Shown here: positions 26,752-31,224 of the stretch, piece by piece
Position numbering within the stretch: position 1 is the stretch's first letter
Layout: every line of letters starts with the position of its first letter
Origin: Synechococcus sp. PCC 7336
GTDB taxonomy: Bacteria > Cyanobacteriota > Cyanobacteriia > Thermostichales > PCC-7336
Assembly: GCF_000332275.1 (NCBI RefSeq)
Contig: NZ_CM001776.1
Span: 186,001 to 250,000 of the forward strand
Length of the DNA: 64,000 nt
Direction: 5' to 3'
Notes under the pieces: generated by a model
Database searches by the model: none
Seen by the model: the letters and a program-made list of their open reading frames with translations, nothing else
What the model was told of the DNA's origin: nothing
Translations under genes and position numbers: made by a program

Positions 26752-27069
26752 TCTAACCTCCCTAGGTCCAGCTGGGTTCTTTGATATGTTTAAGAATCAA
26801 TCCAAATTCTATAGGAACGATACACAGACTTGGATGGATAGGTGACAAATAGATAGATTTCCTGATATTTCCTTATAGAAAAAACCATAAATTTATATTC
26901 TGGGACTGCTTTTAGCCCGGTATTGTTTCTCTTGGATGGTAACCGCTCACCTTCCCCCCTTCAATGCTGCTTCCCAGATTAAGGCAGTCGCCATAAATCT
27001 CAGCGATTCTTGAACAGTGTATAGCCTGTTTATGGCTCATACTTTGCCTATCAGACAACGGCTAGCCAG
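26752..27069. other. Intergenic, nothing recognised
   Basis: About 320 bp, AT-rich on its left side, without an open frame of note or a recognisable repeat. It separates the DUF4282 gene from the remnants of mobile elements. Confidence 0.4.
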
Positions 27070-27224
27070 ATGGCTCGACTGAGCAAAGCAGACCTGGAAC
27101 AAATGGGAGAAGATTATTTTCGTTCTCTCGACCCAGAGCGTTTAGTGGAAGTGGCCGAGAACCTGCACGGGTTAGCTGTCGAGCAGTTAGAAAAGCTTGA
27201 GCAAACCTCTCAAACGAGCAGGTT
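27070..27224 (+). pseudogene. IS66-like transposase N-terminal remnant
   Basis: An ATG at 27070 encodes MARLSKADLEQMGEDYFRSL and PERLVEVAENLHGLAVEQLEKLEQ, the start of cyanobacterial IS66-type transposases. It breaks off after about 50 residues exactly where the antisense group II intron sequence begins. Only the N-terminus remains, so one mobile element has been cut by, or recombined with, the other. Confidence 0.6.
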
Positions 27225-27476
27225 GATACGTGTCCTCCAATAGGGATTGGCCGATTGTGGGCCAATGCTTTCGGGCGTAGGCGGGGGAAGTCCTCTAAGC
27301 TCATCCCGTCACTGCCGGGTGCGCCTTGGTTGGACTTCACACGCTGCCATGCCTGTCGGACAATTGGCGCTCTCCGCAACTCGACCCATCAGGTTCAAGC
27401 CTAAGGCTGGCTGTATGCCGTAACGCCAGTCCGCATCTCCCCCGCTCGGGTTCATTGACACGCCTGAGTTCGTCAT
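27225..27476 (-). pseudogene. Group II intron reverse transcriptase, frameshifted N-terminal fragment
   Basis: From ATG 27474-27476 with AAGGAGG upstream, three consecutive frames give MTNSGVSMNPSG...LNLMGRVAESAN, then RQAWQRVKSNQGAPGSDGM and SLEDFP, then YARKHWPTIGQSLLEDTY. Together they form the N-terminus of a group IIC-type maturase/RT, with shifts near 27372 and 27280. The protein stops before the RT catalytic YADD region, so there is no functional maturase. Confidence 0.75.
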
Positions 27477-27971
27477 GGCTCCTCCTTATGCGACACTGTT
27501 CGGTCCTTCACTGCGACAGCAGCTACTATGACCTCTGCTGACTTCTGCCCAATGCGGCTGCTGTTGCCAACAGTCGTGCTGTCTGAGTCTCCGTAGGGTC
27601 CGGTGGTTTCCCCATCTCTTTCGCGATGGACCTCAGTCCGACTCCCATAGATTCCCTGACTGCCCTCGGACAGACCTGCCCGGATAAGAACGTGAACTGT
27701 CCCTGCAACCGCGCCATTTACCGTGTCCTTTGAACCAGAGGGCTTCGTTGTGTGGTGCCAACTTGCCCCAAGAATCTCGGCCTTCTATGACGTTTCTGTT
27801 CGTCGGCTCGCAGTTTTGCCGCTGGCTTCCTTCAGACATTTCCTCGCGGAAACACCCTTGCCTTAAGCTAGTCGTTGTTGTCTCTCGGCTCCTATGACTT
27901 TCGAGCATTTGGACTCTGGTTCTCCGACAGGGGAATTTCACCCCATGAGTTCACGCCCATGTCGGGCGTAC
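27225..27971 (-). mobile_element. Truncated group II intron (group IIC-attC type), 5' part
   Basis: On the minus strand the sequence begins GTACGCCCGACATGGGCG and continues with GAACTCATGGGGTGAAATTC, the recognisable 5' end of a bacterial group II intron of the GTGCGCCC class. A reverse-transcriptase ORF starts about 500 bp downstream. The intron's 5' boundary falls inside the inverse core site of an attC. The 3' half (rest of the RT, domains V and VI) is missing; the element ends against a transposase remnant near 27225. It cannot splice as it stands. Confidence 0.8.
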
Positions 27972-28056
27972 ACCCTTCACTGCAGCGGATGCTTGGCAAA
28001 ACTATTGCTCTTCGTTGAGAGTGGATCTAGCACCGCTAACCTCAAGGCCGTTAGAT
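27972..28056 (+). other. Integron attC site 1, interrupted at its inverse core site
   Basis: The right end is a core site GTTAGAT (GTTRRRY) at 28050-28056, preceded by CCGCTAACCTCAAGGCC. The left arm ACCCTTCACTGCAGCGG begins directly at the intron boundary, and AGCGG pairs with CCGCT. Aligned with the intact attC at 29347-29421, only the first bases of the inverse core (GCCTA) are lost, replaced by the intron. This is the attC normally joined to the cassette to its left. Confidence 0.8.
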
Positions 28057-28121
28057 GGTACAGCTAAGCAGAGGCGATGTAAGCGTTCCTGAATCCGTGA
28101 CGAACCATAAGTTTGCAGCAA

Positions 28122-28505
28122 ATGAACGAAGCAGAAAGAGAGGCGGGTCTTGCCGTAACGCCTGGTTATAGATACGCCGAGAAAGTGGGGAACCAGTTAT
28201 TCGTTGCTGGCCAAGTCCCGCATAATGCAGACGGACAGCTTATCGGTATAGACGATCCCCACGCTCAATCGCGCCAGTGCTTGGACAATCTACTAAAACT
28301 ACTAGCAGTTCATGGCTACTCGGTCGCAGATATACGGCAGCTAGTTATTTACGTAGTAGGACAGCGCTCTAATCTTGTTCAAGCATGGGCGGCTGTGGAG
28401 GAAAAGTTTAGTGAGGGAGTTCCGCCTGCCACATTGCTTGGGGTCACAACATTGGGTCACGAGGGGCAACTTGTAGAAATTGATGCGACAGCGATCGAAA
28501 CGTAG
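28122..28505 (+). CDS. RidA/YjgF-family protein (cassette gene)
   Basis: 127 residues from ATG 28122; a TTG at 28113 is an alternative. Family landmarks: AVTPGYRYAEKVGNQLFVAGQVP, DPHAQSRQCLDNLLKLLAVHGYSVADIRQLVIYVV and PPATLLGVTTLGHEGQLVEIDATAI. RidA-type enzymes hydrolyse reactive enamine/imine intermediates. The conserved Arg of canonical RidA (SRVCVEIAR-type end) is not present, so it belongs to a divergent subgroup. The gene lies between two attC-like sites in cassette orientation. Confidence 0.82.
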   Translation: MNEAEREAGLAVTPGYRYAEKVGNQLFVAGQVPHNADGQLIGIDDPHAQSRQCLDNLLKLLAVHGYSVADIRQLVIYVVGQRSNLVQAWAAVEEKFSEGVPPATLLGVTTLGHEGQLVEIDATAIET

Positions 28506-28702: not shown

Positions 28703-29287
28703 ATGCAAACCCTAACTTTCGAGCTACCTCGAGATATCACCCTTCACGTCACTGATGCAGAATTCGCGGCGATCGCAGCAGCCAACCGCGACTTACGACT
28801 GGAACGGACCGCAGATGGAGAGCTAATCGTGAATCCCCCTACAGGGAGCGAGTCGAGTAGACGCAATATCAGCATCACATCCCAGCTCTGGATTTGGGCT
28901 GAGGCCAACGAAGATTTAGGCGTTGCTTTCGAGTCTTCTGGTGGCTTTAAGCTGCCGAGTGGAGCGACTCGCGCTGCAGATGCCTCCTGGGTGAGTCGCG
29001 AGCGCTGGGATGCTCTGACTCAAGAAGAAAAGGAAGGCTTTGCTCCTCTGTGCCCCGATTTCGTGGCTGAATTGCGCTCTAAGAGCGATAGCCTCTCCAC
29101 GTTACAAGACAAGATGCGCAATTTTATGAGTAATGGCGCTCGTCTTGGCTGGCTTATCGATCCGCAAAACCAGCGAGTAGAGATTTACCGTAGAGGTCAG
29201 GAAGTCGAGATTTTGGAGCAGCCCAAGCAGCTTTCTGGAGAAGATGTGCTGTCCGGCTTTACCCTAAGTCTGCGAGGCATCTTGTAG
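28703..29287 (+). CDS. Uma2-family protein (cassette gene)
   Basis: 194 residues with AGGAAGGA upstream. Landmarks of Uma2/DUF820 are LRLERTADGELIVNPPTGSES, ATRAADASWVSRERW, FAPLCPDFVAELRSKSDSL and ARLGWLIDPQNQRVEIYR. The PDFVAELRS motif supplies nuclease-fold active-site positions. The protein differs strongly from the Uma2 protein at 9896-10474. An intact attC follows 59 bp after the stop, the layout of a gene cassette. Confidence 0.85.
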   Translation: MQTLTFELPRDITLHVTDAEFAAIAAANRDLRLERTADGELIVNPPTGSESSRRNISITSQLWIWAEANEDLGVAFESSGGFKLPSGATRAADASWVSRERWDALTQEEKEGFAPLCPDFVAELRSKSDSLSTLQDKMRNFMSNGARLGWLIDPQNQRVEIYRRGQEVEILEQPKQLSGEDVLSGFTLSLRGIL

Positions 29288-29346: not shown

Positions 29347-29421
29347 GCCTAACCCTTCATCGCAGCGGATGCTTGGCTAAACTGTCTTTATCTAGCGCCG
29401 CTAACCTCAAGGCCGTTAGGC
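29347..29421 (+). other. Integron attC site 3, intact, 75 bp
   Basis: Inverse core R'' GCCTAAC at 29347-29353 is the exact reverse complement of core R' GTTAGGC at 29415-29421. Inside, L'' AGCGG pairs with L' CCGCT, and CCTT next to R'' pairs with AAGG near R'. Length, symmetry and the GTTRRRY/RYYYAAC cores fit attC sites; recombination would cut G^TTAGGC. Confidence 0.88.
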
Positions 29422-30556: not shown

Positions 30557-30736
30557 ATGTATCTTGTCGATACCGATATCATGATTGATATTCAGCGGAG
30601 TTATGCACCTGCGCTTGCTTGGTTTGCCTCTCTAGGAGAACTGCCAAATATTCCTGGATTCGTGGTGATGGAGCTGATTCAGGATGCTCAGAACAAGCAG
30701 CAGGTCCGTAAAGTCCTACAAATGGTAGCTTGTTAG
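30557..30736 (+). pseudogene. VapC PIN-domain toxin, truncated after about 58 residues
   Basis: From ATG 30557 the product MYLVDTDIMIDIQRSYAPAL carries the first PIN-domain acidic residues, and FVVMELIQDA supplies the conserved Glu. The reading frame ends at 30734-30736 after KVLQMVAC. PIN toxins of this type have about 130-140 residues; the C-terminal half with the remaining active-site Asp residues is absent. A MITE-like element begins 15 bp after the stop, so insertion or deletion truncated it. It should not be an active RNase. Confidence 0.75.
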
Positions 30737-30751
30737 ATGACAATGAGCCTG

Positions 30752-31174
30752 GGCTCTTGCCAACTTTTGATGCTGCTGGCGAAATTCATATTCCGAAACA
30801 TTGGCCATTTGTCTAGATGCCTGTGGCCCCCTTCCCCTAACCCCTACCCCCAACTTTGGGGGCAGGGGAACAAGGCCCCGTAAGGATTTTCGGCTGTTTC
30901 TCCCCTCTCCCAAACTTACGGCTGACGCCACGCTTCGCGAGGGGAGAGGGGCCGGGGGTGAGGGCCATGCAGAGGACTTGCACCATGCCAATATTTCTAA
31001 ATGTTAAATTGGCCAGCAGTATCACTTTTGGCGATTATCACTGTTGGACGAGAATGTTTGTCTTCAATTTTATAGAGAAGGGGGCTGTCAACCCCGATTT
31101 CTGGTTTCTATCCGCTCGAAATCGTCAGTATATTGACGGGTTATTTTCCAGATCGCCAAAAGTTGGCAAGAGCC
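30752..31174. mobile_element. MITE-like element with 18-bp perfect terminal inverted repeats
   Basis: GGCTCTTGCCAACTTTTG at 30752-30769 occurs as its exact reverse complement at 31157-31174, bounding 423 bp with no transposase. Inside lie a partial copy of the dispersed G/C-rich repeat and a short palindromic stretch near 31080-31110. This is the structure of a non-autonomous element or the relic of an IS. Target-site duplications are not evident. Confidence 0.65.
30834..30972. repeat. Partial copy of the dispersed G/C-rich repeat
   Basis: The segment shares TTTCTCCCCTCTCCC, GACGCCACGCTTCGCGAGG and GAGGGGCCGGGGGTGAGGGC with the copies at 43116 and 60419, but its outer ends differ. It sits inside the MITE-like element. 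Confidence 0.65.
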
Positions 31175-31224
31175 AATGGTACTTGACATTTAATACTCTG
31201 TGCTAGCAAAAGTTCAGAGAGCTG

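Follow-up and report, generated by a model that had tools for sequence, protein, structure and literature searches.

A decayed group IIC-attC intron in an integron attC site of the cyanobacterium Synechococcus sp. PCC 7336

Introduction

What kind of element interrupts an attC site in a cassette array of Synechococcus sp. PCC 7336, and does its position reflect target choice or chance? The locus lies in a window of 64,000 nucleotides (positions 186,001 to 250,000 of contig NZ_CM001776.1; the host genome is one contig of 5.07 Mb, here G000:C1). The element in the window is termed copy 1, its sister copies in the same genome copies 2–5. Copy 1 is almost certainly a decayed group IIC-attC intron. 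Integrons in Cyanobacteria are already known (PMC2426708). The site, strand, and TTGT/T consensus of group IIC-attC introns are established (PMC7923331, PMC4424553)—the latter, IBS1/IBS3, being a majority consensus that is typical rather than defining. The open-access literature, with most subscription papers lying outside it, yielded no report joining cyanobacterial integrons with attC-inserting introns. Copy 1 is a degenerate example of a known element; the cyanobacterial clade and the apparent shift of EBS1 are modest additions.

The intron fragment in the window

The features of the locus are the following (window positions):

26939–27218, plus strand: IS66-like element, left 280 nt, fused to the intron; 94% identity to two genomic copies
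27216–27971, minus strand: 5′ fragment of a group IIC intron, 756 nt; 98% identity to copy 2
27216–27476, minus strand: reverse transcriptase (RT) fragment, ATG at 27476, approximately the first 90 amino acids; two 1-nt insertions relative to copy 2
27503–27578, minus strand: group-II-D1D4-1 (RF01998), Rfam 58.9 bits
27689–27853, minus strand: domain I region, group-II-D1D4-3 (RF02001), Rfam 126.2 bits
27747–27762, minus strand: EBS1 hairpin GTTG-GCACCACA-CAAC, with EBS1 = ACCA at 27753–27756
27954–27971, minus strand: intron 5′ end GTACGCCCGACATGGGCG; introns inserted in attC in other cyanobacteria, and those in the blaIMP-4 and arr-2 integrons, start identically
27972–28051, plus strand: attC remnant missing just the outer part of R″; attC model R1, E 3e-15, model positions 8–85
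28113–28505, plus strand: cassette ORF of the RidA/L-PSP family, next after the remnant; PF01042, E 1.3e-16
28703–29287, plus strand: cassette ORF of the Uma2 family; PF05685, E 1.7e-41
29347–29421, plus strand: intact attC of the same family, GCCTAAC ... GTTAGGC; R1, E 1.1e-18

Copy 1 retains domains I–III, the beginning of domain IV, and the initial portion of the RT, and it lacks the remaining RT and domains V/VI. The original prediction, made from the letters of this stretch, had set its extent at 27225–27985, which is corrected here to 27216–27971. It had also described a lost 3′ half and an RT with two frameshifts, and both are borne out: the intron stops in the junction with the IS66-like element (27216–27218, an overlap of 3 nt), and comparison with copy 2 locates the two 1-nt insertions at about 27360–27364 and 27283–27287. 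A 2-nt deletion relative to copy 2 lies in the RNA part. The proposed comparison with domain I models gave matches to both RF02001 and RF01998 (the E-values of the two group II matches are 1.5e-25 and 5e-08). These values, together with the four sibling insertions that the genome also contains, put the match far beyond chance. Copy 1 is presumably immobile, and its antisense position and the loss of domains V/VI would rule out splicing from cassette transcripts.

The two genomic copies of the IS66-like element, at G000:C1:3494102 and 2678358, match each other over 1727 nt. The element presumably belongs to IS66, judging by the N terminus of its transposase; Pfam returned no match.

The attC remnant and the insertion point

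The attC model R1 was built from ten sites of the host genome, several of them adjoining integron integrase genes; aligned, the ten have invariant TAAC and GTTAGG ends. Genome-wide, R1 finds 44 sites in the host, and 26 and 28 in two other cyanobacteria. A scan for R and L boxes alone was dropped for calling attC sites as too weak. The remnant beside copy 1 (G000:C1:213972–214051) is matched by R1 from model position 8 onward, and this match opens precisely at the border with the intron; the model positions before it, among them those for the TA of TAAC, have no counterpart on the remnant's side of the intron. The intron 5′ end at 27971 directly adjoins ACCCTTCACTGCAGCGG at 27972, and the predicted start of the intron exactly at the left arm of the attC is confirmed. 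The intact copy that the prediction had used for comparison, at 29347, is a genuine site, and its bottom strand folds with R″ and R′ paired. The bottom strand of the remnant alone folds no better than shuffled sequences (z −0.20), which is expected since R″ is gone, and its folding was hence not used as evidence.

The insertion had been placed inside the TAAC of the inverse core. For copy 1 this stands as far as the 5′ edge, which lies at the inverse core; the full TA|AC split is visible only in the siblings and relatives, the 3′ junction of copy 1 being lost. The intron is on the minus strand and the cassettes on the plus strand, hence in opposite orientation. Both this orientation and the position, GT|T in R″ of the bottom strand, match the published TTGT/T target, as expected from the antisense target choice of group IIC-attC introns.

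The sites are very similar to one another, with a mean identity of 76%, and in this they resemble a repeat family: the intron might have targeted another dispersed palindromic repeat rather than attC. This is highly improbable given the canonical RYYYAAC/GTTRRRY ends and the L boxes, the site clusters adjoining integron integrase genes (TIGR02249, 380.9 bits; cut-off 265), and the cassette ORFs between the sites. The reading as integron attC sites, for which the intron had been put forward as independent support, is indeed confirmed by it as a separate, inserting element.

Class and kinship

The RT tree comprises 88 RTs from a genome scan, plasmid references, and cyanobacterial genomes. A quick preliminary tree served to define its two sides, which a tree with fuller support values then put to the test: 48 of the 88 RTs fall on the side where attC insertions predominate and 40 on a terminator-dominated side, with a split support of 100/99. 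Since what is left of the RT in copy 1 is broken and too short for a tree, copy 1 was placed by its 5′ RNA and the RT placement was made through copy 2. The RT of copy 2 lies within the attC side in a clade with L030, L031, L034, and L035 (support 100/100); the tree of the 5′ RNA has the same split (support 99) and places copy 1 nearest to copy 2, L034, L035, and L031. The clustering with attC-inserting introns that was anticipated for the RT is therefore found in the sister copy, and the RNA of copy 1 agrees with it. The pair RF02001/RF01998 also matches the introns of the blaIMP-4 and arr-2 integrons, whereas RF02005 is the match of L013, a group II intron of the host that is unrelated to copy 1.

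The introns of the blaIMP-4 and arr-2/rmtF integrons (L020, L021) are like those of the host in the GTACGCCC start, the two Rfam matches, the side of the RT tree, the insertion at GT|T of the bottom-strand R″, the antisense orientation, and the position of the EBS1 loop. S.ma.I2, a group IIC-attC intron compared from literature descriptions, has the same likenesses. The introns of clinical integrons differ in having RTs that are only 47–50% identical; the host copy resides on a cyanobacterial chromosome, and copy 1 is truncated. UHB.F1, from a soda-lake metagenome, is likewise a truncated IIC-attC intron; it lies antisense within a cassette array and has a frameshifted RT (PMC7923331). It lacks its 5′ part whereas copy 1 lacks its 3′ part, and it is not described as cyanobacterial (PMC7923331). 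The closest relatives, with RTs 70–80% identical, are those of Leptolyngbyaceae SM1_4_3 (L034), Leptolyngbya sp. FACHB-321 (L035), G215 (L030), and G296 (L031), which share the clade and the insertion in attC. In two of these cyanobacteria both edges lie in R″: GCCTA|AC for L030 and GT|TAGCC for L031. This extends attC-inserting introns to Cyanobacteria, with five genomes in one clade. L030 (G215:C45) has a long open RT frame and a large deletion in the RNA part upstream of the RT.

Class C introns are able to use other hairpins and the same RT family has terminator-type members, so copy 1 might be an ordinary terminator-targeting group IIC intron lying beside an attC by chance. Terminator-type introns share the class C ribozyme and the RT, but they insert after poly-T terminators, have other EBS1 sequences, and occupy the opposite side of the tree. 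The RT and RNA trees give the attC side, poly-T is absent upstream of the insertion of copy 1, and the siblings and cyanobacterial relatives sit at the same attC base. By these the chance placement is already refuted, and it keeps next to no probability. The class of the intron as IIC-attC, its site, its orientation, and the kinship of its RT and RNA are demonstrated. Points against this classification are the missing 3′ junction and the incomplete IBS1/EBS1 pairing of copy 1, the untidy 3′ exon of copy 2, and the dependence of the RT placement on copy 2.

Sister copies in the same genome

Copy 2 (G000:C1:939423–941358, 1936 nt) is 98% identical to copy 1 in the match at 940612–941371. It carries the RT with one frameshift near the C terminus, domain V, and the end ...CTATCCCGAT. 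Its protein stops, frameshifted, shortly after the maturase region, a region absent in copy 1. Downstream of copy 2 the 3′ exon reads TTTGC, which departs from a clean R″. The attC of this copy continues in frame into an aminoglycoside 3-N-acetyltransferase-like fragment (AAC(3)-I-like, by eye; L011 16282–16620, G000:C1 about 941.3–941.6 kb), in the manner of a junction at a secondary site, GTTAT.

Copies 3–5 are 5′-truncated and consist of 3′ ends only (G000:C1, about 1136.9 kb, 4528.0 kb, and 2589.0 kb). They break attC sites of a cassette without an obvious ORF at one identical base: a query of this cassette plus its attC stops at base 103 of 128 in all three, giving ACCTA|AC, and more than 10 uninterrupted copies match through to position 128 and represent the empty site. 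The family hence comprises five copies in the genome, all in one attC family and at the same base where the edge is checkable; the 3′ edge of copy 2 is untidy. An attC remnant at G000:C1:4806075–4806154, which also covers R1 positions 8–85, was rejected as a sixth insertion, there being no intron adjoining it.

The ORF-less cassette measures about 180 nt (a 102-nt body plus attC) and occurs in about 25 copies with a mean column identity of 90%, in tandem in several clusters (G000:C1 933297, 933477, 933657, 2575391, 2575571, 2581418, 2581598, and others; L154–L168). In 8 other genomes of the order it is absent. Vibrionaceae are reported to have gene-less cassettes that carry promoters (PMC11014356).

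Copies 3–5 have in common a flank of approximately 102 nt whose end coincides with the cassette boundary G|TTAGG, as would be left if the introns had spread as passengers of a moving cassette through integrase-driven shuffling instead of by their own retrotransposition. This flank is the abundant ORF-less cassette itself, with 27 matches, for which reason passenger spread of copies 3–5 is set aside; in addition, the flanks are far more divergent than the introns, and such a route is improbable. The intron parts differ by 0.5–1.4% and the cassette bodies by 7–13% (Fisher p 0.004 to 5e-5). Because intron divergence is below that of the cassette bodies, the comparison points to separate insertions of copies 3–5 after the cassettes had diverged, although gene conversion may have contributed to the likeness of the introns. 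Because one attC family is present in this genome both as many empty sites and as several filled ones, the host offers a natural test set for target choice by the intron and for whether EBS1 follows the sequence of the host attC.

Pairing of EBS1 with the target

Target choice in these introns is reportedly covered by the key papers of Quiroga (2008), Quiroga and Centron (2009), and Leon and Roy (2009), to which PMC4424553 refers. EBS1 was taken as bases 3–6 of GCNNNNNA, and this loop was tested by pairing with IBS1 in the 51 introns whose hairpin is distinct. In copies 1 and 2, EBS1 was assigned by homologous position in the RF02001 alignment, as the automatic pick took the wrong hairpin. A loop with GAACAGAAAC was dropped as the seat of EBS1, this motif being constant across attC-type and terminator-type introns. 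In the attC type, 3.59 pairs form compared with 3.18 for shuffled partners (p 0.0002, a generous value as related introns are not independent). In the terminator type, 3.55 pairs form compared with 2.07, none of 5000 shuffles being as good, again among related, non-independent introns.

The bottom-strand IBS1 of copy 1 is GGGT and not the usual TTGT—a point missed in the original prediction—and that of copy 2 is TGGT, so that neither has the TTGT/T consensus. The EBS1 sequence ACCA forms 4 of 4 pairs with TGGT and 3 of 4 with GGGT, compared with the ACAA/TTGT of the clinical type. Other members of the attC side vary as well (IBS1 GGGT, TAGT, and GTGT), several with a matching EBS1, and the cyanobacterial relatives have a different EBS1: ACAC, ACAA, or ACTA. 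Among the 30 top-scoring attC sites of the host, the top-strand IBS1 letters are ACCA in 8, TGGT thus being the commonest IBS1 variant of the host, ACCC in 6, and ACAA in 6; in the two other cyanobacteria ACAA, which corresponds to the usual TTGT target, is commonest at attC. These small numbers suggest that EBS1 may have evolved to fit the TGGT/GGGT attC variants of the host. A further reading, possible but somewhat short of probable, is that EBS1 in the cyanobacterial IIC-attC clade was retuned to an attC variant made dominant by amplification of the ORF-less cassette, the retroelement thereby tracking the evolution of its host sites.

Proposed route of insertion and neighbouring elements

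In the proposed mechanism, a presumably endonuclease-less intron ribonucleoprotein would recognize the folded bottom strand of the host attC by its hairpin and by the 4-nt IBS1/EBS1 pairing. Reverse splicing, whose chemistry is inferred, would then take place between GT and TRRRY of the bottom-strand R″. Insertion in this strand would therefore leave the intron antisense to the cassettes. Copy 1 would later have lost its 3′ part in a rearrangement that involved the IS66-like element.

Three integron integrase genes or remnants are present in the host: G000:C1:927338–928277 (split between two frames), 2574022–2575093 (in pieces), and 4251138–4251437 (N-terminal part only). At window positions 30733–31193, a 37-nt inverted repeat (81%) flanks a G+C-rich repeat; similar sequence lies beside copies 3 and 4, and this is perhaps a MITE-like element.
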